Origin: a virus
IMG/VR virus record: IMGVR_UViG_3300009060_000001
Location: 1-64,000 of that record
Reading direction: 5' to 3' (one strand)
Length of the DNA: 64,000 nucleotides
Shown: piece after piece, positions 1 through 60,970 of the stretch
How positions within the stretch are numbered: position 1 is the first letter of the stretch
Layout: every line of letters begins with the position of its first letter
Position numbers and translations under genes: made by a program
The notes under the pieces: generated by a model
Database searches by the model: none
What the model was told of the DNA's origin: nothing
The model's input: the letters and a program-made list of their open reading frames with translations, nothing else

Positions 1-66
1 AACAATAACAGCATTGTCGGGTTTCCGCCATCCTTTCCTTCGGGATCGTTTTAATCGTTTGGCCAT
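1..66 (-). CDS. Partial gene, N-terminus of a DUF4326-like protein
   Basis: The start codon is at 66 and the gene runs off the left edge after 22 codons. The basic N-terminus (MAKRLKRSRRKGWRKP) followed by DNAVIV resembles the opening of DUF4326 phage proteins, in which an RxxGWxxP segment precedes the core. It starts 3 bases after the upstream gene stops, so it is probably the next gene of the same minus-strand operon. With so little visible, the family call is tentative. Confidence 0.5.
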   Translation of the reverse strand, partial: MAKRLKRSRRKGWRKPDNAVIV

Positions 67-69
67 AAA

Positions 70-666
70 CTATCCTCCCACTTCTGCTTTTGCATCTTCA
101 AACGCTTTATTGATCTTCTTCATCGTTTCATCCGATCCCCCGGCATCGCTGTGATGCTGTTTGGCCAACCGGTTTCGGGCTTTTTTCACTTCCTGCATGG
201 TAACTTGATCCTTGGGCTTGTCCAGCTCCAGGACTTTCGGCCAGTCCGAACGCTCCGGAAGGCGAAGGTAACTTTCACCGCGCTTCTCGGCCATCACAAA
301 ATCAACTCCACCATGCCGAACCTTGGTACGATCTGCCTTTATGCAGTGGTAAATAGCTTGCACGTTGCAGCGCACTTTGTTGTACCGATCCACCGGGATA
401 CACAGCTCCATCCCATCCCAAGTAAAATATACGCATACGCCGGGATCATCCGGGCGCTTATTACCCAGGGTAACATTGGAAGAAAATAATATATCCTCCA
501 CCTTACGATCGGAATCCTTAGCCAACCGGCGCAGCTCATCCCGGACGTTTTCCATTGCCTGAAAGAGCGTTACCTTAAATTGAGATTTCTCCGGATTCTT
601 GGTTCTGCTTATATGGTCGGGCCATTGCAGTGGATACTCGCTTTTGTTTGCAAATTTTTTACTCAT
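70..666 (-). CDS. Protein with C-terminal J-domain-like segment
   Basis: 198 residues. The first 150 match nothing I recognise. The last ~45 read like helices II-III of a DnaJ J-domain: a basic helix (ARNRLAKQHH), a loop HSDAGGSDE and a helix MKKINKAFEDA. The catalytic HPD tripeptide that stimulates DnaK is HSD here, and helix I is not obvious. Comparable short J-like tails occur in phage proteins near replication genes, so a link to host DnaK or a helicase loader role is possible but inferred. It opens directly onto the partial gene downstream and sits in the replication operon. Confidence 0.6.
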   Translation of the reverse strand: MSKKFANKSEYPLQWPDHISRTKNPEKSQFKVTLFQAMENVRDELRRLAKDSDRKVEDILFSSNVTLGNKRPDDPGVCVYFTWDGMELCIPVDRYNKVRCNVQAIYHCIKADRTKVRHGGVDFVMAEKRGESYLRLPERSDWPKVLELDKPKDQVTMQEVKKARNRLAKQHHSDAGGSDETMKKINKAFEDAKAEVGG

Positions 667-14304: not shown

Positions 14305-14329
14305 TACCCCAAAAGCCACCTAAAATAGA

Positions 14330-14361
14330 AAAGGCCAGCTCGCTTGGGCTGGCCTTTCTTT
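14330..14361. terminator. Bidirectional terminator
   Basis: AAAGGCCAGC and GCTGGCCTTT form a 10-bp stem (14330-14339, 14348-14357) followed by CTTTTATT on the plus strand; on the minus strand TTTTCTATTTT follows the stem. It lies between the converging plus operon and the lysis end of the minus operon and would stop both. Confidence 0.85.
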
Positions 14362-14435
14362 TATTCTCTTAGGTGCTAAACTAAAGAATAATGAAAAGAG
14401 TGCTCTCAACTCTTACCATTGCTAAAATAGGTAGA

Positions 14436-15098
14436 TTACAAGGCATATCCAAGAATGAATGCTGCCACCGTTGCTACTTCTGTCCAAGGGAATCGCCTAC
14501 CTTTGGGTTTTAGCGGTGTCGTTGATACTACTTTTAGGCTATCGAAATCCGGAGATGTGGTTAGTGCCTTTACCGATGATCGATCATCATTAATAAAGAT
14601 CGCCTGGTCAATTCTCACGCGCCTAAGCTGGCTTATTTCAGGCGTATCCAAAAATAGCGAGTCATTACGTATGCCACCGCGAGCAACGGCTTCTATGAGT
14701 CCATTTCCGAAGGTTGCTCGTTTCTCTAGTGTTGTATCGGCAAATGTTTGCTCGGTACTGTCGGAATCGTTTTTAAGATCCCATATTGAAAGCGAAGAAA
14801 CTTCTTGTAGGCTATCGACCTTTAAATTTAGCTTCCCAATAATCTTATTATAGGAAGCCAGCTTGTCTTTGTTTTTGTCCACATAATCGCGGAATGCCTT
14901 GGAAGTATTGGCCAGGGAATCTTTAATCTGCGATTTATCAACGCGCAGCGCTTGGGTAAGCGTAGTTAAGGAATCAAGTTTTTTTGATTGTTCGGCCGTT
15001 TCGTATTTAATTTTCTCTGGCGTAAAATACCTGGTAAGGCCAACAGTTAACAAAAGTACTACTATTCCTAATCCTATTTCTTTTGGGGAAAAACTCAT
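14436..15098 (-). CDS. Spanin-like double-anchor coiled-coil protein
   Basis: 220 residues. An N-terminal transmembrane helix (IGLGIVVLLLTVGLTRYF, about 7-24), a long coiled-coil-prone middle, a beta-rich part, and a C-terminal hydrophobic segment (VATVAAFILGYAL) ending at the stop. This inner-anchor plus periplasmic-rod layout next to a holin suggests a spanin-like role in disrupting the outer membrane. There is no lipobox. It overlaps the holin stop by four bases. A tail-chaperone or unrelated membrane role cannot be excluded. Confidence 0.5.
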   Translation of the reverse strand: MSFSPKEIGLGIVVLLLTVGLTRYFTPEKIKYETAEQSKKLDSLTTLTQALRVDKSQIKDSLANTSKAFRDYVDKNKDKLASYNKIIGKLNLKVDSLQEVSSLSIWDLKNDSDSTEQTFADTTLEKRATFGNGLIEAVARGGIRNDSLFLDTPEISQLRRVRIDQAIFINDDRSSVKALTTSPDFDSLKVVSTTPLKPKGRRFPWTEVATVAAFILGYAL

Positions 15099-15775
15099 GC
15101 TGCTTCCTTTTCTTTTTTGATTACTGTAACATCTTCATTGCCAAAATAATATGCTTGCGATTCGGCAAACTCCTTGGCTGCTTCTTCATCTACCTTGTCC
15201 CATAGCTCTGGCCAATCAATGTTATCTAACTGGCCCTTCTTTTTGTAAAGCTTAAAGGCTACCCTGGCAAAAGCAGTCATTTTTACGTGTTTCAATACGC
15301 TCCAAATTTCATGGCCGGTAAGAATTAAAAATAGCACATATTGGAACCATCCCAGCGCATCCGGAAACATATTAGCCCCCACAGTAACAGCAATGATCCC
15401 GATAGAATACATTACGGATTTATAAAATGTTTTCATCCATTTTTTGGGATGAAATCTTATCCTGGAATCGATAATGGCCCGGATGGATCCGGCGATAAAA
15501 TCAAGGAATACCAAGATTATTAACCCTTCAACAAGATTCTTAGGAGTTACAAATAGCTGCGCTACTTGCTGTGGCTCGAAAAATCCTTGCATATACGCAA
15601 ATATCCCGTAGGCCCCTCCCAGCAATGCTTTATATCTAAACTGATAAGGGATTTCGGCAATGGGTCGTAAAAAAGGGCGGATAGCCGTGTACCAAAACAT
15701 ATTAATATACCCCGTTTTGTGAGTTACAATTATGGTTTTGTTTGGAAGTTCTATCGTTTCTCTAACTGTTTCCAT
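15095..15775 (-). CDS. Phage holin-like membrane protein
   Basis: 226 residues with three to four transmembrane helices between about 45 and 150, including LVEGLIILVFLDFIAGSIRA and SVMYSIGIIAVTVGANMF. The DFIAGSIRAIID element resembles the toxin-secretion/phage lysis holin family. A charged cytoplasmic tail follows. It is coupled to the spanin-like gene and lies 40 bases after the DUF5675 gene, the usual location of a lysis cassette in this phage type. Confidence 0.65.
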   Translation of the reverse strand: METVRETIELPNKTIIVTHKTGYINMFWYTAIRPFLRPIAEIPYQFRYKALLGGAYGIFAYMQGFFEPQQVAQLFVTPKNLVEGLIILVFLDFIAGSIRAIIDSRIRFHPKKWMKTFYKSVMYSIGIIAVTVGANMFPDALGWFQYVLFLILTGHEIWSVLKHVKMTAFARVAFKLYKKKGQLDNIDWPELWDKVDEEAAKEFAESQAYYFGNEDVTVIKKEKEAA

Positions 15776-22300: not shown

Positions 22301-25300
22301 CTCATTCTAACGCCAGCTGGCAATCGTTCTTTTATTTTTTTATGCATACTAAGATCAGCTCGGGAAGATTTTAAGTTTCCGCTGGGATGGTTATGAACCA
22401 AGGTAACTTCTTGGATGTCGTAACGCTGCACGAAGTCTGTAACAGCCGTATGATCGATTGCAGAATGAGCAGGTCCCCCCATGCCAACATTAAGAATAAT
22501 GGCTTCACCATTCCGATCTATCCCTACAATGTATCCTTGTTCAATAGCTGCGTTTTCCAGCTGTGAAAACATAAAGGCTATATCGGCATCCGTTCGAACC
22601 TGTTGGTTGCGACTCACCGGCTTAATATTATCCCAGGGAATGTATTGGCGTTCCTGCATAGTGAATTCCAGGTTATCCCCTTGGGTTATTTCTCTCATAC
22701 CTGGATGTGCCGGTATGGTTTCTTCGGGAGCTGGCTCGTTTGGATTTTCATCGAAGAACCCAAGTTGCCGGGCGCTTTGGTATTCCATAATACGACCATC
22801 CGGCAGCTGCACGTAATTCCCATTTTCACTGTACGAAACACCGGTTTTTTCTTCAAGCCTATTACCAACATCCTGCATGGAATTTATATCATCTCCATAG
22901 GACTCGATAACTTCATTGGCTTGGCCATCGGTAATGGGTGGCTGTTTGGTAATACCGGCCAACCGGCGCTTCCAGTATTCTGCTTCATCTCGGCCATTTT
23001 GTTCGGCCCACACACGCGCGCGCTGGGAAATCAAGTTAATAATACCATCAACTTGTTCTGCGGTAATATCAGCATTGTTATTCAGCTGTTCGCGAAACTT
23101 CTCCTTCGTCATGGTTTCTGTATGTCGGCGCGGAGTTTCCTCCGGGGGAATCTCTTTATTATCAAGATCCTTAGTAGTAGATTCCAACAAGTCCGGATAA
23201 GCAGAAAGTATTTCTTCGGATACCGGCCGGTTATCTTCTAAAGCTTGAGCAACAGCTGTCTTATGCTCGGGAATAAATTTATTGTCAATGAGATTTGAAA
23301 TTTCTTCTTCACTCATTCCATCCGGAAGTTCATCGATGCGATGCTGCACGTATTCTTCGGGCATCTGATGATGGGGCTTTAATTCAATCGATTTTTCACC
23401 GGCGCGATCCAGTAGCTTGTTAACCAAATCCCCGGTTGTCATATCTTCTGTTGGAGTAATGCCGTTTTCTTTTGCTACTTGTTCTTGCCAGGTTTCCCCC
23501 TCTTTGACATCTGACATTACCATATCCGGCATATTGGGATTCTGCTGGTAATCTCTAATTAATTTACGTGCCGAATCGGTTAACTCGACTCCTTGGTTGG
23601 CTTGCTGTTCAGATTGGCCAGTATTTGCATCCGTTTGCTCCTGGGAAGATCCAGGTACTTCATTTTGGTTCTCATCGATACTTTGTTGCTGCTGATTATT
23701 GGGTTGGGGATTGTTGTCGATGATTTCATTTTCAAAGGCAATTAATTGGTTAAAAAGTTGTGGCGCGTTGTTTGCTCCGGATTGCTGGAGCTGCTGCGTT
23801 TTTTCATCGATCCAATCCAAAGCGCGGATCTGTTCAGCTTCGGTAAGGGGTTGGCCTTGATCGAATTTGTCAAAAACAGTGGTCATCCGGGGATCGCCAT
23901 CGTCCAGCCGGAATTCGCTTGTATTTACGCCCTGCGGAGTTAACTCCCGGTGGGCTTGATCAACGGCCTGGGTAAATGCTTCGGGATCCACGTTGGGCTG
24001 CGTACCGCGTCCGAAGTACTGCTGCCACATTACTTGCTCTACAATATCCGGATCGCGGAAGGTACGGCGGTTGCCATCTTCATCAGCCATCGTAACACTT
24101 TGTACTTCTCCAGCATCATTCGTATTACTAGAAAGCCAGCTATAATTTTTCGTCTGCTGGGGTTCGCCGGTAAGCCGATCGGTTTCTGTTAATTGAAATT
24201 GGTCGGTTTTGGGATCCGTAAGTTGCATAGTTCGTACAGGGGGCTGGGTAGCCCGTTGCAGCTCGGTATCAGAAAGCTTTGTAGAAGTATCTTTATAGGT
24301 GTCGGGAACCTCTACAATCTGATTATCACCGGTATCAATAACAATATTCCCTTCGGAATCCTGCGTAAGTGTTCCGCTATAATCGCCCATAGTTACTTGG
24401 TCGCCCATTACATCTTCAATCGTTCCTTGCTGGGCTTGCTGATCGCGCATTTGCTGGAGCTGCTGGTTATGGATCTCATTCCGGCGTTGCTGGAGCTGCC
24501 GGATAGATTTATCAAATTCTTCTGTGGGTTCACCCCGGGTTTCGGCAATATCACGATTGCGAAGGATCCGGTCGGTTTCTTCGGTTATTTGTTTTATTTG
24601 GGTATTTAAATCGGCATCCTCATTTATATTAGAAGTAGCTCGTTGATCCGGGGAATAACCGCTATTCTTTTCAAGTTCCTGTGTAAACTTCTCCCAATGA
24701 TCCAATACTTGCTGATCGTTATAGTTTTGAACCCCTCCATGATCCGGAATCACTTCTTCTTCCAGGATGCTATTTCTGCGCGTTTGCCACAACTGGAAGT
24801 TATGATCTTTTAAATCCGGATTTCTTGCATCAGTTATCTGATTGGCTTCGGTATAGATCTCTTGCTGCGATGATCCATCCCTGGTATAAGGCAACGATAT
24901 TTTAATTCCTGGTTTCTGCGGGGCTTCCTGTTGCTCAATATTCAAACCGGCTTGCCTAGCAGCCGATTTCACATTGGCATTTCGCTGTGGATCCGAAGTT
25001 TCATTAAATACCATGTGCCCCTGGGTTCCACGAGATTTTGGAGCTCCAGATTCGTTTCTGCTTCCAGGGTGGTCAACTTGTAATCCGGAATCACCGGAAT
25101 TGATTTCATACCCCATTGAAGTGGCAGCCTTGGCATAAGGAACTAATCCCGAATCCAGCTGAATAGATTTTCCGGAAGGCTGTTCCACATCTTGTTTTAT
25201 AGGTTTATTATAGGTCTTTTGTTCTTCCGGACTCATATTTTGATATTCTTCCGGAGAGAGAAATTCCCGGCCGGTTACATCCACATTTGATTGTGGGGAC

Positions 25301-51880: not shown

Positions 51881-51970
51881 TTGACCGAATGGGACTCGAA
51901 CCCACATTCCCTGGTGATAGCTGCTAGCAGCCCTTTAGTCAGGTGTCCTATCCAATTAGACGACCGGCCA
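51881..51970 (-). tRNA. tRNA-like gene with abnormal anticodon arm
   Basis: 90 bases. Acceptor TGGCCGG/TCGGTCA (two G-T pairs), D-arm GTCTAATTGGATAGGAC, T-arm GTGGG-TTCGAGT-CCCAT and discriminator A are all intact. Between D and T arms there are 39 bases instead of about 23, and no normal 5-bp stem with a 7-base loop can be formed. The only outer pairing is CCTG/CAGG, which encloses 26 bases containing GCTGCTAGCAGC, a perfect palindrome. Amino acid identity is therefore undetermined. It may be a pseudogene, an insertion, or an unusual RNA. Confidence 0.6.
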
Positions 51971-52222: not shown

Positions 52223-52605
52223 TCATAGTTATCTAAACAGTATTTAACTTCGTTAATAAGTTCAATGAATTCTTCGGAAAACCCATCCACATTTTTCTCA
52301 ATATAATGGACTAGATTCCGGGATGCACCTTTTAGGGCTTCTTGTTTTAAATAGGCATCAACCTTCTTCGATACTTCGACCGAACGTTTGGCCTGGGCCA
52401 CCGGATCTTCTGCCTTATCCAAGTCTAACCCTTCCACATTATCGTTGATCTGTGCCAGGCGCATAACAATACCAGCAAGCTCATAATAAGAGCCAACGGA
52501 AAACGCTTGCCCACTGGCAGTACTTAGCAGCACAACCGCTATACGCTCGTTAAAAATGGCTTCATCCAATTGTAATTCGTAATTCGAAACAAATCTTGAA
52601 ATCAC
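52219..52605 (-). CDS. Hypothetical helical protein
   Basis: 128 residues, helical throughout (for example RLAQINDNVEGLDLDKAED). Overlaps the recombinase stop by four bases (ATGA) and the next gene similarly, so the three form one coupled unit. The family is not recognised; a role with the recombinase is suggested only by linkage. Confidence 0.55.
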   Translation of the reverse strand: MISRFVSNYELQLDEAIFNERIAVVLLSTASGQAFSVGSYYELAGIVMRLAQINDNVEGLDLDKAEDPVAQAKRSVEVSKKVDAYLKQEALKGASRNLVHYIEKNVDGFSEEFIELINEVKYCLDNYE

Positions 52606-53189
52606 TGTGCTAATATGGCTTGATTAATCTTTTCGGTGTCCGCGCCGATGTAGTGCAGCGTGGTTTCAACGTTTTTATGGCCAAAAGCTTTCTGCGTAGC
52701 GCGAATATCATGGCCGGTATTCTCGTAAACGCGCATCCCAAAAGTCTTTCGCATACTATGAGTACCTACGCGATCGTAGATATTAAGCGCATTGGTAGCT
52801 TTTTTGAGGATCCGAATGGCCTGAACATTCGTTATAGGCTTATTATCGCCTTTTCTGGACTGAAATATGTACCAACCCCGGCTAAAACCATCTTGTTCCC
52901 GAAGCTGCTCTACATGCTGCATAACGGCTTCTTCCATGCGATCATGTACTGGAATAGCCATCCGATCGCCATTTTTTTTCATGTTGGAAGGAGATACCCA
53001 AACCTTGCCAACCATATTACCATCTGGAGTAAACAGATCTTTTATTTTAAGGCTCAATACCTCGGAGATCCGATACCCGGCAAAGCGCTGAATAGCAAAC
53101 ATCGCGCGATTGCGGAGCTGACTCTTGGTTAAAAAGTATTGTTCAATCTCATTGTATTCTTCATCGGTTAAATCCCGGCGAGCGGCCAT
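52602..53189 (-). CDS. Minimal tyrosine recombinase
   Basis: 195 residues from the ATG at 53189 (MAARRDLTDEEY), chosen because the similar second recombinase also begins at this point; earlier in-frame ATGs at 53213 or 53258 would add a hydrophobic tail. Catalytic residues: Arg40 (GYRISE), a lysine region near KKNG, His144 and Arg147 (HSMRKT), His171 (GHKN) and Tyr180 (LHYIG). The N-terminal core-binding domain is missing. It may integrate the phage or resolve genome dimers. It lies next to tRNA genes, the usual attachment targets. Confidence 0.85.
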   Translation of the reverse strand: MAARRDLTDEEYNEIEQYFLTKSQLRNRAMFAIQRFAGYRISEVLSLKIKDLFTPDGNMVGKVWVSPSNMKKNGDRMAIPVHDRMEEAVMQHVEQLREQDGFSRGWYIFQSRKGDNKPITNVQAIRILKKATNALNIYDRVGTHSMRKTFGMRVYENTGHDIRATQKAFGHKNVETTLHYIGADTEKINQAILAQ

Positions 53190-53354
53190 ATTAATCCCAA
53201 TTTTGGTTCCCATTATAATTCCAATCATCCAACCTAAAGAAAGAAGGGAGCCCTGCACGATGGTTGCTAAAAGCTGCGTTTACATGACTTTGACATCGGC
53301 CAGGACTCTCCGTTCCCAGGTGCTACAATGTTAGTAAACTTCTTTAACAGTGTC

Positions 53355-55492: not shown

Positions 55493-56134
55493 ATGAGAGG
55501 AGCCAGACCGCTAGAGCATCCCGAAGTAGAGCAGCTACTAAGAGAAGGTTTTACAGGCCAGTTTAAGCACCGTAACAGATCACTTTTTGCAATAGGTGTA
55601 TCCACTGGATTCCGATGCAGTGAGCTACTAGCGTTAACCTTTCGGGATGTGATCCATAGACGTTATCCAAAAGACTGGATCAAGATTAACAAACGACACA
55701 CGAAGGGAAAGACACAAGGACGGACAAACCAGCTGCAACCATTCGCTAAGAAATCCCTGCAACCTTGGATCGAAATCCGAAGGGAGCAGCAGCCAGAAAT
55801 ACCCATACTACTGGATGCACCTGTTTTTTTGTCAAGAGAGATCAACCAGCGGACCGGAGAAATAAAAGCTATTAGCCTGGATCAAGCTGGCAAGATCCTG
55901 CGCGCTGCTTTCAAGCGCTGCGATATTACTGGCAGCGTATCAACTCACACGATGCGCAAGACATTCGCTAAAATTGCCTACCGGAATGCCGTAAAAAAAT
56001 ATCAGGCCGGAGAGCTGCTAAAAGAACCCATCTTTGTAGTTAAAGACCTGTTAGGCCACAAACATCTAAATGATACCCTTAAATATTTATCATTCTTGGG
56101 CAGCCAGATAGATGAATTTGATTATCAATTTTGA
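55493..56134 (+). CDS. Second minimal tyrosine recombinase
   Basis: 213 residues. Arg41 in GFRCSE, His152 and Arg155 in HTMRKT, Gly-His at 188-189 (LLGHKH) and Tyr198 (LKYLS). Like the recombinase at 52602 it begins at the catalytic domain without a core-binding domain; the two share the domain layout but differ throughout in sequence, so they are not a recent duplication. A leader without a Shine-Dalgarno precedes ATG. The gene is followed by the first promoter cassette of the accessory block. Confidence 0.85.
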   Translation: MRGARPLEHPEVEQLLREGFTGQFKHRNRSLFAIGVSTGFRCSELLALTFRDVIHRRYPKDWIKINKRHTKGKTQGRTNQLQPFAKKSLQPWIEIRREQQPEIPILLDAPVFLSREINQRTGEIKAISLDQAGKILRAAFKRCDITGSVSTHTMRKTFAKIAYRNAVKKYQAGELLKEPIFVVKDLLGHKHLNDTLKYLSFLGSQIDEFDYQF

Positions 56135-56146
56135 TAAAGAAACCTA

Positions 56147-56175
56147 TTGATTAAAAGGACAGATTTATTTATATA
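56147..56175 (+). promoter_or_regulatory. Promoter cassette 1
   Basis: TTGATT (56147-56152), 17 bases, TATATA (56170-56175). The sequence around it (AAACCTATTGATT, AAAGGACAGATTTATT) is nearly the same as cassette 2, differing in a few positions. TTAGGTGCTA follows at 56195 and the ATG at 56208. Confidence 0.8.
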
Positions 56176-56207
56176 TCCGGTACACAATAATCAATTAGGT
56201 GCTAAAC

Positions 56208-56525
56208 ATGGATACAATAACAAGAACAGACGTTTTAAATCATTTTGAAACGGCAATAACAGCAATTCGACAATTCCGGGAAAGCTGGCGCGGACGTTTT
56301 AGCCGTAGCATTTTAGGCAGCTTTAAAGATCTTGAATACAACATAGATCAAGAGCTCCAGATGATCGACTATTTAACCGTACACCCATCCAGCAGCTTCA
56401 CCAATGATGATTGGGCTCTTTTTGATAAGCTTACATTAATCATTGATGAAGATCTGGAGCAGCTGCGACACCAGCGAATAAAACCGGCAAAGATAACCCT
56501 CACTAATCAATACAATAACTTTTAA
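56208..56525 (+). CDS. Hypothetical protein behind promoter cassette 1
   Basis: 105 residues from the ATG after TTAGGTGCTAAAC; a GTG inside the motif (56199) is rejected as start. Mostly helical, with a basic patch SWRGRFSRSILGSF and acidic helix WALFDKLTLIIDEDLEQL. Not recognised. First of the accessory block, so expected to be expressed early. Confidence 0.6.
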   Translation: MDTITRTDVLNHFETAITAIRQFRESWRGRFSRSILGSFKDLEYNIDQELQMIDYLTVHPSSSFTNDDWALFDKLTLIIDEDLEQLRHQRIKPAKITLTNQYNNF

Positions 56526-56542
56526 CCTTTTAGGTGCTAAAT

Positions 56543-57226
56543 ATGAATGAACGAATCGAAAAACTAAAGAAGAAACAAGCCGAAGAACTGGCCAAGGCCG
56601 AAGCCGAAGAATCAGCGCGCAAGCTGATCCCGGAAAAATACTTGTCCACATTCTTGCAATACCGGAGCAAAAAACTGGCAGAGTTTGGCGCGACCTACCG
56701 ACCGGAAAACATTTCGAACGCTATGGCGCTGCTGGATCTATTCGACAAAGAGCCAACCAGCTCGGTACTAGCTAAGGGGACGTTTACCGGATTTCGGGAA
56801 AAGTCTATTGCCGAAGCGGACGAAAGCATGAACGAAATTACCAATATTGTGCCGTTCTGGATCAAGGTGGATGAGTCCCCACATTCGCACGATGCTAATA
56901 TTGTTTTTAACTATCCGATCACATCCGGCATTGTTGGCATAAGCATAGAGCTCCCATCTCATTTACTGCGCAAATTAGTACAGGTAACGTTTAAGCGCGT
57001 AGATTTTCGCGGTGGGTATCGTTTTGATAATGTGCGCGCACACGTTTTAGATCCGGCACAAGTCTTATACGATGGCTCTGAATCCGTAGCCAATGCAGCA
57101 AGCCCCATAAAATGGGGTAGAGGTGGCAACGAGTACGTAAATGACTATACATTTTACTGGCTGCCAACCGGAGTAGAACCGGCAAGTTGGTACGAAGTTT
57201 TAAAAAGCTTATTGCGCAAAGTTTAG
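56543..57226 (+). CDS. Hypothetical accessory protein
   Basis: 227 residues from the ATG after TTAGGTGCTAAAT. N-terminal charged helix (NERIEKLKKKQAEELAKAEA), then a mixed domain with SSVLAKGTFTGF and beta-rich sections SGIVGISIELPSHLLRKLVQ. No family recognised. It lies 17 bases after the preceding gene; no promoter of the cassette type precedes it. Confidence 0.55.
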   Translation: MNERIEKLKKKQAEELAKAEAEESARKLIPEKYLSTFLQYRSKKLAEFGATYRPENISNAMALLDLFDKEPTSSVLAKGTFTGFREKSIAEADESMNEITNIVPFWIKVDESPHSHDANIVFNYPITSGIVGISIELPSHLLRKLVQVTFKRVDFRGGYRFDNVRAHVLDPAQVLYDGSESVANAASPIKWGRGGNEYVNDYTFYWLPTGVEPASWYEVLKSLLRKV

Positions 57227-57312
57227 CGCCTATAACCTGTGGCCGGGATGTTGATCCGTTCCGGCTTCTTCTCTCAACTTAACCCACAACCATAAAAAAA
57301 ATAGGTGCTAAT

Positions 57313-57783
57313 ATGTTCACTTACCACGCTAGAGGAGTTAAACACGAACGCGACAGCGAAGGCAATAAGCTGGATCACATCCAGCAAATTACCAACGACA
57401 GCGAAACCCCGGAATTTTGGAGCGTTTACCGGCGGAACCCGGACGATCCCACATCAACGCGCTGTATTGCTGATTTCTTTGGAGATGATATGGAACGCAA
57501 TGCAAAAGATTTTGAGCTGCTAAAAAATGACTGTCCGGCAGCCGATAGAATAGCCGTTCTTATTACGCGCATAAATGCCGTAAAAAATACGTGGCTGGAA
57601 GTTTATAAAGTTCCGCGCGCTGGCTGCAAGATCGAAGGCGGAAAGCGCGCGACCGCTATTTTTGTCAACGGCAAAAAATTAGATAGCCAACTGGCAGCCA
57701 TTCAATACGTTCATCAGGTTTTTGGTGTAGCGTATGCCAAAGATTTGAAAGCTGCTTTTAAAACCCAATACTGGCCAGTTTAA
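57313..57783 (+). CDS. Hypothetical accessory protein
   Basis: 156 residues, after the 9/10 motif ATAGGTGCTAAT. Contains RNPDDPTSTRCIADFFGDDM and TRINAVKNTWLEVYKVPRAG. Some positions recall small DUFs of Bacteroidota phages but none is identified. It is followed by a small membrane protein gene. Confidence 0.55.
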   Translation: MFTYHARGVKHERDSEGNKLDHIQQITNDSETPEFWSVYRRNPDDPTSTRCIADFFGDDMERNAKDFELLKNDCPAADRIAVLITRINAVKNTWLEVYKVPRAGCKIEGGKRATAIFVNGKKLDSQLAAIQYVHQVFGVAYAKDLKAAFKTQYWPV

Positions 57784-57806
57784 TTTTAATCTTAGGTGCT
57801 AACCTT

Positions 57807-57971
57807 ATGGATGCTATTATTGTATTATCAATCGGAACGCTGGCATGTTTTATAGGAGCATGGAGAACAGAGGACCAAAACAATAGAGATATTTATCTCA
57901 TTTGTGCCATTGTTTTCCTGTTCATTATTGCCAGTCATGCCATGTTTAACCCTTACTTACAACTTAAATAA
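57807..57971 (+). CDS. 54-residue two-helix membrane protein
   Basis: Begins after TTAGGTGCTAACCTT. Hydrophobic segments IIVLSIGTLACFIGAW (about 4-19) and IYLICAIVFLFIIASH (about 29-44) separated by a charged turn TEDQNNRD. The length is below usual gene-calling limits, but the motif, the membrane profile and the 7-base gap to the next gene all support it. Possible envelope or exclusion function; unknown. Confidence 0.6.
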   Translation: MDAIIVLSIGTLACFIGAWRTEDQNNRDIYLICAIVFLFIIASHAMFNPYLQLK

Positions 57972-57978
57972 GCCAACT

Positions 57979-58347
57979 ATGAAAACCATCGAACAAAAAA
58001 CAATCGGGCCGGATCAATTTAACGAAAGGCTAGCCAATGTAAATCGTTACTGGAATAACATCGAAAAACGTGGGGAAGCCAAGAACCAGGCAAGCGAAGA
58101 ATTAAAAGAAAAATGCCGTTTCATCTTCGTGCGCGATGATGGTTGGAGTATTGCCAGCGCTGCATATTATCCAGCGCTCCAGCTCTGGCCAGATGATTGG
58201 GAAATTATTTACACGCTGCGCAAACCTCACCAAACATTAGAGGGCAATTCCAAGCGCTCAAAATGGACCGGAACAAAACGGCAATTCATGGACAACATGA
58301 GCGATGCCAGCGGTCGCGTATTTAGCGATGCAGATCCCGGACTCTAA
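57979..58347 (+). CDS. Hypothetical accessory protein
   Basis: 122 residues from the ATG at 57979; an upstream GTG reading overlaps the membrane gene and is rejected. Contains KCRFIFVRDDGWSIASAAYY and a basic C-terminus ending FSDADPGL. Lacks the TTAGGTGCTA motif, so it may be translated by coupling to the 54-residue gene. Not recognised. A strong terminator follows. Confidence 0.55.
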   Translation: MKTIEQKTIGPDQFNERLANVNRYWNNIEKRGEAKNQASEELKEKCRFIFVRDDGWSIASAAYYPALQLWPDDWEIIYTLRKPHQTLEGNSKRSKWTGTKRQFMDNMSDASGRVFSDADPGL

Positions 58348-58374
58348 TCAACGGTAGTAAACCCCGGAAGGATC

Positions 58375-58409
58375 GAGCTGGCCAGTTTAACCGCTGGCTG
58401 GCTCTTTTT
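58375..58409 (+). terminator. Terminator between accessory operons
   Basis: GAGCTGGCCAG pairs with CTGGCTGGCTC (11 pairs, two G-T) around an 8-base loop, followed by TTTTTAT. Promoter cassette 2 begins 14 bases further, so this separates two transcription units. Confidence 0.85.
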
Positions 58410-58422
58410 ATAAACAAACTTA

Positions 58423-58451
58423 TTGATTTAAAGGACATATTTATTTATATA
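58423..58451 (+). promoter_or_regulatory. Promoter cassette 2
   Basis: TTGATT (58423-58428), 17 bases (TAAAGGACATATTTATT), TATATA (58446-58451). Nearly identical to cassette 1 from the AAACTTATTGATT upstream box to TATATA. TTAGGTGCTA is at 58476 and overlaps the ATG at 58485. Confidence 0.8.
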
Positions 58452-58484
58452 CAAGTACTGAAACATTAATTAATCTTAGGTGCT

Positions 58485-59015
58485 ATGACTGATTTTATTA
58501 TTTCGCTGCAAGTTGCAGACGATTCATTTCAAGAACTGGACACAAAAGCACACAAAAACAGCGCTGGCCATGTAACCGGATCAATGGTTTTACAGAATGC
58601 TATTAGCAGGGCCGTTGAAGATACTGGCGTATCGGTTGGCTACCTTAGTATGAAGATGCTAGCCACCGTTAAGCGCGATGATCCAGAGCTAAGAATAAAC
58701 TGCGAAGCCCTAGCCGAGCACATCCCGATAAAAGGGAACGCGCTGGCTTCTGGCGATGATGAGCTGGACAGACGAACCGAACAGCTTATTCAGGAGCAGC
58801 TGGAAGCCGGAAATATTTGGGCATGGTGTACGGTTGAAGTATCAGTAGAATGGAACGGGATCGAATCCGAAGAAGAATATTTAGGATGCTGTTCGTATAA
58901 ATCCCGAAGCGATTTCGCGGAAAATTCTGGCTATTATGAGGACATGGTAAGTACATGCCTTGACAATCTTAATAAAAAACTGGCGGATCTCCGCCGGAAA
59001 TCCCTGGAAGTATGA
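58485..59015 (+). CDS. Hypothetical accessory protein
   Basis: 176 residues, start inside TTAGGTGCTATG. Two sequence blocks, HVTGSMVLQNAISRAVEDTG and the cysteine-containing YLGCCSYKSRSDFAENSG, are separated by a variable acidic region. The last codons overlap the methyltransferase start by four bases. Family not recognised. Confidence 0.55.
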   Translation: MTDFIISLQVADDSFQELDTKAHKNSAGHVTGSMVLQNAISRAVEDTGVSVGYLSMKMLATVKRDDPELRINCEALAEHIPIKGNALASGDDELDRRTEQLIQEQLEAGNIWAWCTVEVSVEWNGIESEEEYLGCCSYKSRSDFAENSGYYEDMVSTCLDNLNKKLADLRRKSLEV

Positions 59016-59836
59016 ACAGCTTAATATCTCTTTACGATGCAAGTGGCAACTGGCCGGAACCGTTCGCGCGTTCCGGCTGGATTGTCCATCAACTAGATCT
59101 AAAATTAGGCTATGATGTTTTAGATTTTGATACCGCACAGCGATGCCTTGAAACCTTTGGCGATGTGGATGGAATTCTGGCAGCTCCAGAGTGCCGAGTC
59201 TTTACCAATTCAAGCGCATGGAAATGGCCAGACTATAACCGCGATGGTGAAACCGAAGCATCGTTGCAGCTGGTCCGGCAAGTGCAGCGCTTTGCAGAAC
59301 TCTTTAAGCCTACGGATTTCGATTATTACCGCGAATCCGGGAAGCCGTTCTTTTGGGCGCTGGAGAACCCACCCGGACGATTGCCTAAGCTGGTCCCGGG
59401 ATTGGGGGAAGCTTTTTTCTTTCATCCTTGGGAGTATGCCGGTTATCTGGATCACAGTGAAGAAGATCTGGCTCGACTGGAGCAGCTTCGAAATACTCCA
59501 GTAAAAGATATTACTTGGGAGGATGCCGAATTTGTGCTTGATTGCAACGCCTATACCAAACATACCGGCATTTGGGGGGAATTCTGTAGGCACATCCCAA
59601 AGAAACCCATTCTGCCGGTGAAGTGCTGCCCATCCGGTAGCCCTATGCAAATGCTTGGGGGCAACAGAGAGCGCACGAAAGAAATTAGAAGCAGGACACC
59701 GCTGGGGTTTGCCCGAGCGTTCTACGAAGCAAATAAAGACTATCAAGCGCCATTGTCCCGGGACAAACAGACTGGCCTATTCGGGACTGGCGACAAAAGC
59801 GAAGATGATCCAATGGCCTGGATCATGCGAGATTAA
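59012..59836 (+). CDS. DNA cytosine methyltransferase-like protein
   Basis: 274 residues. SLYDASGNWPEPFARSGW resembles the SAM-binding motif I of C5 methyltransferases (LFxGxG), followed by HQLDLKLGYDVLDF (motif II region) and ILAAPECRVFTNSS, where the usual PPC catalytic loop reads PEC. WALENPPGRL matches the ENP motif IV. The target-recognition domain is small. It also contains KQTGLFG. Whether it methylates DNA is uncertain given the altered loop. It overlaps the preceding gene by four bases. Confidence 0.65.
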   Translation: MNSLISLYDASGNWPEPFARSGWIVHQLDLKLGYDVLDFDTAQRCLETFGDVDGILAAPECRVFTNSSAWKWPDYNRDGETEASLQLVRQVQRFAELFKPTDFDYYRESGKPFFWALENPPGRLPKLVPGLGEAFFFHPWEYAGYLDHSEEDLARLEQLRNTPVKDITWEDAEFVLDCNAYTKHTGIWGEFCRHIPKKPILPVKCCPSGSPMQMLGGNRERTKEIRSRTPLGFARAFYEANKDYQAPLSRDKQTGLFGTGDKSEDDPMAWIMRD

Positions 59837-59844
59837 GAAACTTA

Positions 59845-59873
59845 TTGATGATATAAAGTTATTTCTTTATAAT
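59845..59873 (+). promoter_or_regulatory. Promoter cassette 3
   Basis: TTGATG (59845-59850), 17 bases, perfect TATAAT (59868-59873). The upstream AAACTTATTGATG is conserved with the other two cassettes, the spacer less so. TTAGGTGCTA at 59896, ATG at 59908. Confidence 0.75.
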
Positions 59874-59907
59874 ACCCTTTCACGTTAACAAATTCTTAGG
59901 TGCTACT

Positions 59908-60144
59908 ATGAATAAAACAAAGAAGCTTCGCGAACTGGAGCAAAAGCATATCAGTAAAGGTACGCCAGTAATGATCCGGGCCCCTGAATCTATGCGCGTA
60001 TCCAAGTTTAATGGCCGTAAAGGAGAAATTAAGCGGATTAAATGCGGTTACAATCCCATTCCCGAGATAGAGCTAGAAGATGGGACACAGTTAGCCGTAG
60101 AATTGAAGTACTTAGTCATACCACAACAAACTAACCTATTTTAA
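59908..60144 (+). CDS. Small KOW-like protein with QTNLF tail
   Basis: 78 residues. Core GTPVMIRAPESMRVSKFNGR, GEIKRI and the EIELEDGTQLAVELKYLVI strand pattern looks like an SH3/KOW fold for nucleic-acid or ribosomal contacts. The C-terminus is QQTNLF, a sliding-clamp-type peptide. It is first after promoter cassette 3 and is followed by a 99-residue gene with no gap beyond two bases. Confidence 0.6.
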   Translation: MNKTKKLRELEQKHISKGTPVMIRAPESMRVSKFNGRKGEIKRIKCGYNPIPEIELEDGTQLAVELKYLVIPQQTNLF

Positions 60145-60146
60145 TT

Positions 60147-60446
60147 ATGCCTGCTACAAGAGCTTTAAAAGGAACCGTAGCCCTAGAAATGGCTGTCAGT
60201 ATTGAAGAACAAGCGCAGCGCGCTGGAATCCCGATGCGTAAGGTAGCCCAAACGATGAGCAAAAATATAAATGATCTGGATGAACTTTTTGAGGATGGCG
60301 GACACGTTCGATGCGTTCATTTTATGGATATTGGAGATCAAAAATATGCCAGGCAATTTGGAGAAATCGAATCACCGGATTGGGAAATTGCCAGATTCGA
60401 AGTTAAAGATTTAGCTGTTGAGCTGCTGGAATTGAAATATTTGTAA
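60147..60446 (+). CDS. Hypothetical protein
   Basis: 99 residues, helical start (RALKGTVALEMAVSIEEQAQ) and a C-terminal beta part (ARFEVKDLAVELLELKYL). It is coupled to the KOW-like gene. No motif precedes it. Not recognised. Confidence 0.55.
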   Translation: MPATRALKGTVALEMAVSIEEQAQRAGIPMRKVAQTMSKNINDLDELFEDGGHVRCVHFMDIGDQKYARQFGEIESPDWEIARFEVKDLAVELLELKYL

Positions 60447-60478
60447 AGATCCTACCTTAGAAGTCCTAACGTAATCGT

Positions 60479-60510
60479 AGCTGGTCTGCTGATTCGGGCC
60501 AGCTTCCTTT
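60479..60510 (+). terminator. Terminator before next motif gene
   Basis: AGCTGG and CCAGCT arms (60479-60484, 60499-60504) around a 14-base loop, followed by TCCTTTTC. Moderate. AGTCCTAACG lies just before it (60462). Confidence 0.6.
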
Positions 60511-60541
60511 TCACTATAACCGAAACCTAATCTTAGGTGCT

Positions 60542-60970
60542 ATGATTAAACTAACCGAAGCGCGACCGCGCGAAATCCTCATGTACTTAGAGCTGGAGCA
60601 TGGCGGACAAACCTACGAAATCGAGTGCGAAGTTGATGCCGAAATGGGAATCGTCAACCGCGTAAGCGAAATAAATGGAAACGAGCTGCCAGATTTGGCC
60701 GTAGAGCGCGCAAAAAGATATATACAACACTGCAACTGGAGCTTTGAAGCATCGGGCGAACGCGATCCCTTTCCGATTCCCATCGATGTAGTTGTGGCCA
60801 TTAAAGGAGGAACATTTCACGAACTTTGGACCAACCGTTCTAACGTCAATATTCACAAAATTGATATTGATAAGGACAGCGAAGATCCGGTACTGTATCA
60901 AAAGGTAAAAGCCGAAACTATTGGCAATCCCATGAAGATGGTTCAAAAATATCAATCCGAATTTAAATAA
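60542..60970 (+). CDS. Hypothetical protein
   Basis: 142 residues starting within TTAGGTGCTATG. Contains HGGQTYEIECEVDAEMGIVN and KRYIQHCNWSFEASG. Its YEIECEVD strand resembles one in the following protein (FDVEFEGEDYKI), so the two may be distant relatives. No promoter of the cassette type precedes it. Confidence 0.55.
   Translation: MIKLTEARPREILMYLELEHGGQTYEIECEVDAEMGIVNRVSEINGNELPDLAVERAKRYIQHCNWSFEASGERDPFPIPIDVVVAIKGGTFHELWTNRSNVNIHKIDIDKDSEDPVLYQKVKAETIGNPMKMVQKYQSEFK

Follow-up and report, generated by a model that had tools for sequence, protein, structure and literature searches.

A start-anchored ten-base motif at seven small phage genes and a candidate antisense RNA partner

The window analyzed here comprises 64,000 nucleotides (positions 1 to 64,000) of the 67,825-base IMG/VR virus record IMGVR_UViG_3300009060_000001, and the element in question is TTAGGTGCTA, a ten-base motif anchored to gene starts. 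Gene calls in this phage are mechanical, and motif counts cover the whole record. An earlier note had reported the motif at seven plus-strand starts, and the coordinates agree, with six exact copies and one 9/10 copy (ATAGGTGCTA) spanning 56195 to 60542. All seven genes are small and non-structural, share one orientation and lie downstream of an integrase:

55493..56134, plus strand: tyrosine recombinase, 213 amino acids (aa), directly ahead of the motif gene block
56195..56204, plus strand: motif copy 1, before gene 56208-56525 (105 aa, no assigned function); AGGTG-to-ATG gap 6
56530..56539, plus strand: motif copy 2, before gene 56543-57226 (227 aa, no assigned function); gap 6
57301..57310, plus strand: motif copy 3 (9/10, ATAGGTGCTA), before gene 57313-57783 (156 aa, no assigned function); gap 5
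57792..57801, plus strand: motif copy 4, before gene 57807-57971 (54 aa, hydrophobic small open reading frame); gap 8
58476..58485, plus strand: motif copy 5, before gene 58485-59015; gap 2, the final A of the motif being the A of ATG
59012-59836, plus strand: DNA methyltransferase gene, overlapping the preceding gene 58485-59015
59896..59905, plus strand: motif copy 6, before gene 59908-60144 (78 aa, no assigned function); gap 5
60533..60542, plus strand: motif copy 7, before gene 60542-60970 (142 aa, no assigned function); gap 2, the final A of the motif being the A of ATG

Copies of the motif and the leaders that carry them

The record holds seven exact copies of TTAGGTGCTA, all on the plus strand and none on the minus strand, and the reversed-pattern control yields no copy in the whole record. 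About 0.1 exact copies would be expected by chance in the window (a scaled estimate). An 8-mer common to the upstream regions of 7 of 82 starts was not matched in any of 1,000 shuffles (shuffle maximum 6, reached once). Counting the motif over the rest of the genome, as the earlier note had proposed, adds one further exact copy, at 14369, which is not ahead of a plausible start and had been missed. At the seven starts, the motif ends at most 5 bases from the ATG or overlaps its A, and the overlap that had been remarked on before is seen at 58485 and 60542. The GTG within the motif was rejected as a start codon, being out of frame in most copies.

The motif is missing from genes that start close behind another gene (57979, 59012, 60147, 60979, and others farther on). 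The motif genes have upstream gaps, some with a terminator-like hairpin and three with a sigma-70-like promoter:

56145..56175, plus strand: promoter-like block TATTGATTaAAAGGACAgATTTATTTATATA, upstream of copy 1
57241..57266, plus strand: terminator-like hairpin, ahead of copy 3
58375..58404, plus strand: terminator-like hairpin, ahead of the copy 5 promoter
58421..58451, plus strand: second promoter-like block, upstream of copy 5
59845..59873, plus strand: sigma-70-like promoter TTGATG-17-TATAAT, upstream of copy 6
60479..60504, plus strand: terminator-like hairpin, ahead of copy 7

In the three promoter-bearing cases, the motif lies about 19 to 25 bases past the end of the −10 box, and no promoter was found between motif and start codon, which places the motif in the mRNA leader. 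The remaining four copies have no promoter block nearby and sit in operon gaps. The blocks at 56145-56175 and 58421-58451 are identical at 29 of 31 positions; past them, the stretch leading to the motif has diverged, while the motif itself is unchanged. The exact motif is also retained in a third leader whose promoter is different. This argues for selection on the motif and not for recent copying alone.

The motif is also specific to this phage, as had been suggested. At least 119 stretches of other viral contigs match TCTTAGGTGCTATG exactly; a motif regulon in these contigs was rejected, since the inspected multicopy contigs contain apparent chance matches in coding sequence. The only close relative is G007, a second contig that is ~99.8% identical to the phage record and lacks the motif region. 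Searches for relatives by the terminase and by genes 56543, 60542, and 58485 returned near-identical contigs, very distant ones, or none. We regard a start-anchored mRNA element particular to this phage as secure.

Both ends of the record share an exact 123-base repeat (window positions 1 to 123 and the record end), and G007 is continuous across the end-repeat joint; the genome is thus a complete, circularly mapped circle of ~67.7 kb. It belongs to a tailed phage encoding portal, terminase, capsid, a DnaB-like helicase, and two tyrosine recombinases. Searches through the capsid and through methyltransferase homologs in genomes did not identify a host. The two recombinases are short (52602-53228, minus strand, 208 aa; 55493-56134, plus strand, 213 aa) and flank a tRNA-Met and a mostly noncoding stretch. 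A degenerate motif copy, CCAGGTGCTACAATG, stands in this recombinase/tRNA region ahead of a very short open reading frame (window 53316-53330, plus strand), and a third tRNA (window 51881-51970, minus strand) was detected by Rfam and missed by ARAGORN.

Pairing with 16S rRNA and the fixed flanks

The 16S rRNA tail contains CACCU, the exact complement of AGGUG. The motif can pair there over five bases, as the earlier note had claimed, and its AGGUG amounts to a weak Shine-Dalgarno (SD) sequence that pairs with the 5′ side of the anti-SD. The accompanying argument that some gaps are too short for an SD sequence fails, because pairing on the 5′ side lengthens the effective spacing: counted in the usual GGAGG frame, a 2-base gap corresponds to one of 4 bases, and the seven spacings become 4, 4, 7, 7, 8, 8, and 10, near the ~3 to 7 of the phage's own clear GGAGG-type genes.

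Such pairing and spacing would also suit an ordinary ribosome binding site, the ten-base likeness having come from promoter/leader cassettes copied from one ancestor; the 29/31 promoter blocks are evidence of copying, and the phage, in which an SD sequence is absent at most gene starts, has some clear ones (5 with at least 7 bases versus 0.4 expected). We consider this explanation rather unlikely. Nowhere in 16S rRNA do the TT and CTA flanks find a contiguous partner, and yet they are fixed, in keeping with what had been noted about them, even where the stretch from promoter to motif has diverged. Five of the ten fixed motif positions thus fall outside the AGGUG pairing core, which is not the conservation of a plain SD sequence. 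Moreover, four copies lack a promoter block, the spacing to the ATG varies from 2 to 8 bases, and an analogous motif in another phage (G008, below) is entirely without an SD sequence. Because the flanks are fixed without 16S rRNA pairing while the surrounding leaders diverge, a second reader of the motif is likely, probably a trans-acting partner. A translation enhancer or regulator acting on one co-regulated gene set had been proposed before; the short-gap argument for it falls, and a co-regulated set with a trans-acting partner stands as the most likely reading.

A candidate antisense partner and its counterparts in other phages

The copy at 14369 is the only exact one away from gene starts, the nearest ATG being 15 bases after its AGGTG. 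Its surroundings are as follows:

14329..14358, both strands: bidirectional intrinsic terminator-like hairpin separating the convergent operons; each strand has a T-rich tail
14362..14390, minus strand: hairpin UAUUCUUUAG-(UUUAGCAC)-CUAAGAGAAUA, with the anti-motif in its loop
14369..14378, minus-strand reading: orphan copy, anti-motif UAGCACCUAA, in the 3′ untranslated region (UTR) of the holin operon; candidate antisense seed
14436..15098, minus strand: last gene of the operon that carries the anti-motif in its 3′ UTR, 220 aa, with an N-terminal membrane segment, spanin-like by eye
15095..15775, minus strand: holin (PF05105, above the Pfam cutoff)

In the minus-strand transcript of the holin operon, UAGCACCUAA is located 57 bases past the stop codon. 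Since the orphan lies between convergent operons, behind a bidirectional terminator for plus-strand transcripts, it is expected mainly in the antisense transcript. The predicted fold of this 3′ UTR (z = −3.65) consists of a small hairpin, the hairpin with UUUAGCAC in its loop, and the terminator; when the flanks were shuffled with the core kept, an equally stable fold with an equally open core arose in 0.8% of trials. Contiguous complementarity between antisense and leader reaches 12 to 16 bases at six of the seven starts. By sequence, the phage thus encodes at 14329-14390 (minus strand) both a complement and a terminator, as a trans-acting antisense RNA would require.

An exact mirror of the tag in one other transcript suggests a small antisense RNA that would control the whole gene set at once, and we tentatively put forward an antisense RNA from the holin operon 3′ UTR as the best single candidate for the partner of the start-anchored site. 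In this model, TTAGGTGCTA would be an mRNA element through which the seven small non-structural genes are regulated together after transcription, as one regulon: the AGGUG core would pair weakly with the 16S tail, and the full ten bases would be preserved because a second partner reads them. That partner would display UUUAGCAC in a hairpin loop just ahead of a terminator, and its pairing over 12 to 16 bases with six of the seven leaders would mask the SD sequence, plus the A of the AUG in two genes, so that the set would be shut off once the lysis operon is transcribed. The motif, its positions and the antisense copy are features of the DNA itself; production of the RNA, its pairing in the cell, and repression by that pairing are what we infer from them. 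If the model is true, it would show how a phage can silence early or accessory genes as a group with a single RNA.

Similar anatomy was found elsewhere, among phages reached through the methyltransferase of the motif block. In G008 (L199/L278-L280), ACATCTGACA precedes five starts, one of them ending in ACG, without an SD sequence; an antisense ACACATCTGAC, with an 11-base match, lies in a 3′ UTR just before a terminator-like hairpin (fold z = −4.77). In G002 (L287-L290), AAACCACA precedes approximately six starts, and an antisense copy at record position 24605 stands one base ahead of a canonical terminator with seven T. A common test asked how often a start 8-mer recurs in antisense no more than 20 bases ahead of a terminator, using several overlapping 8-mers per motif. 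The baseline is 2 to 5% in the present phage (G000), G008, and G002, and the strong start motifs of all three have such a copy. The excess of antisense copies before terminators is suggestive and not conclusive, because each motif contributed several overlapping 8-mers and the test was designed after the pattern had been found. In another phage, G005 (L037-L039, mainly 38000-59990), TAAACACTAG followed by TATAAT stands 5 to 7 bases before the ATG of ~20 genes; as a translation element it was rejected, being promoter-like, and it resembles a class of promoters specific to that phage from which leaderless mRNAs would arise. G009 (L285-L286) has an extended SD-type start motif, ACACGAAAGG, before several genes.

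Lone opposite-strand copies also occur among the Start-Associated Sequences (SAS, GGGATAGGAGCCC) that have been described, together with extended SAS (ESAS), in Cluster K mycobacteriophages (Pope et al. 2011, PMC3203893). In subcluster K1, the plus strand reads GCGCGG-CCTCCTATCC-CCGCGC, identical in six phages (L159, 28683-29067), within a gap that is annotated as noncoding in Anaya and some others and overlaps a predicted gene in the rest; here, too, the anti-SAS falls in a hairpin loop (Anaya 59,682-60,066). In Fionnbharth (K4), the anti-SAS GGCTCGTG-TCCTCCTATC-CGCGAGCC is at a different place, in a hairpin loop (L295, 364-456). Shuffles of the flanks gave 1.9% for K1 and 0.15% for Fionnbharth. 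Antisense SAS copies in ZoeJ and Kratio were rejected as anti-SAS, the former being a real minus-strand start and the latter coding. It is possible, on these examples, that some phages run a multigene regulon through one dedicated antisense RNA, with a target at every start and one complement before the terminator in another operon's 3′ UTR, the sequence varying and the anatomy recurring.

Several observations weigh against the antisense model. At the locus itself, the 9/10 start (57313) pairs poorly and has its best stretch elsewhere; a search of the locus gave no promoter from which a small RNA could be made separately; and the sole close relative, G007, at 99.8% identity and unchanged over 200 bases on either side of the orphan, is too similar to reveal covariation. 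The anatomy was examined before the statistics were chosen. Elsewhere, read on the antisense strand, the G008 hairpin makes a weak terminator; G009 and G005 (2 of the 5 phages with strong start motifs) are without such an antisense copy, although the G005 motif is promoter-like; and in two phages an ordinary SD k-mer occupies the same position before a terminator. Within Cluster K, the K1 loop is altered or missing in Keshu, Ekdilam, Amgine, and SirPhilip, which nonetheless keep 14 to 17 SAS cores; TM4, Pixie, Unicorn, and Aminay are without an exact antisense SAS copy; and TM4, Pixie, Keshu, Ekdilam, and others retain 12 to 23 SAS cores with no anti-SAS loop. A general co-occurrence of loop and SAS in Cluster K was thus rejected, since distant subclusters keep SAS without the loop, and the antisense model is not general for SAS.

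The orphan, finally, may be the relic of a cassette inserted behind the inter-operon terminator whose gene was lost, its antisense reading being accidental. Gaps between convergent operons are usual insertion spots, and three start copies likewise follow terminator-like hairpins. The orphan has no start codon at normal spacing, however, its flanks form an inverted repeat that places the motif in a loop, and G008 and G002, with motifs of their own, show the same placement; we consider a relic unlikely.

Still less probable is that the reader is a protein, namely a phage or host RNA-binding protein for which the motif would be the operator, blocking or helping initiation at the seven starts as T4 RegA does. 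The position overlapping start codons matches RegA operators (PMC3014915), a single protein could recognize all ten bases, and the same block encodes several small proteins of no assigned function. On the other hand, RegA sites are loose and A+U-rich (PMC3014915) and TTAGGTGCTA is nearly invariant; no RNA-binding family was found among the tested block proteins, and no RegA homolog matched among the scanned proteins, a subset of the open reading frames. Single-sequence structure models of two small block proteins (pLDDT 42 and 53) were too poor and were not used.

An element acting at the DNA level, as part of a promoter or as a repressor operator, is highly improbable: the core TAG-GTG-CTA does form a short inverted repeat in all copies, and three copies lie about 19 to 25 bases downstream of a promoter-like −10 box, but the palindrome is too short for the usual dimer operator, four copies inside operon gaps have no promoter nearby, the anchor is the start codon and not the −10 box, and the promoter-type start motif of G005, with TAAACACTAG and its TATAAT close to the ATG, is built differently.

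Comparison with known systems

Among known systems, SAS are the closest: like TTAGGTGCTA, they are short asymmetric sequences that stand a few bases ahead of the ATG in many non-structural genes close to an integrase, combine an SD core with fixed non-pairing flanks in one orientation, have promoters upstream of a subset, and include one lone copy not at a start. The motif works like SAS and is not SAS. Its sequence is not the consensus GGGATAGGAGCCC, and both sequence and phage are unrelated; it has 10 bases versus the 13 of SAS, with seven genes here; and its orphan sits in a holin operon 3′ UTR before a terminator. Unlike ESAS, the present block is a sigma-70-like promoter, and the 17-base imperfect inverted repeats were not seen in the aligned leaders. 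The function of SAS has been an open question since 2011, and an antisense copy before a terminator makes an antisense role concretely testable. Start motifs of this kind may, in addition, mark co-expressed small genes of no known function in metagenomic phages.

With T4 RegA (PMC3014915), too, a single regulator controls many early mRNAs by acting at their start codons or across them; RegA differs in being a protein with loose A+U-rich sites, and no RegA-like protein was among the tested proteins here. Phage-encoded RNAs that pair with mRNA include P1 C4, P22 sar, lambda OOP, phi24B 24B_1, and lambda PreS (PMC8198154, PMC12197685), of which C4 and sar block synthesis of one protein (Ant). The targets described for these RNAs number one or a few each; in the present model a single 3′ UTR element would match seven starts, each of which carries a copy of a dedicated target site.

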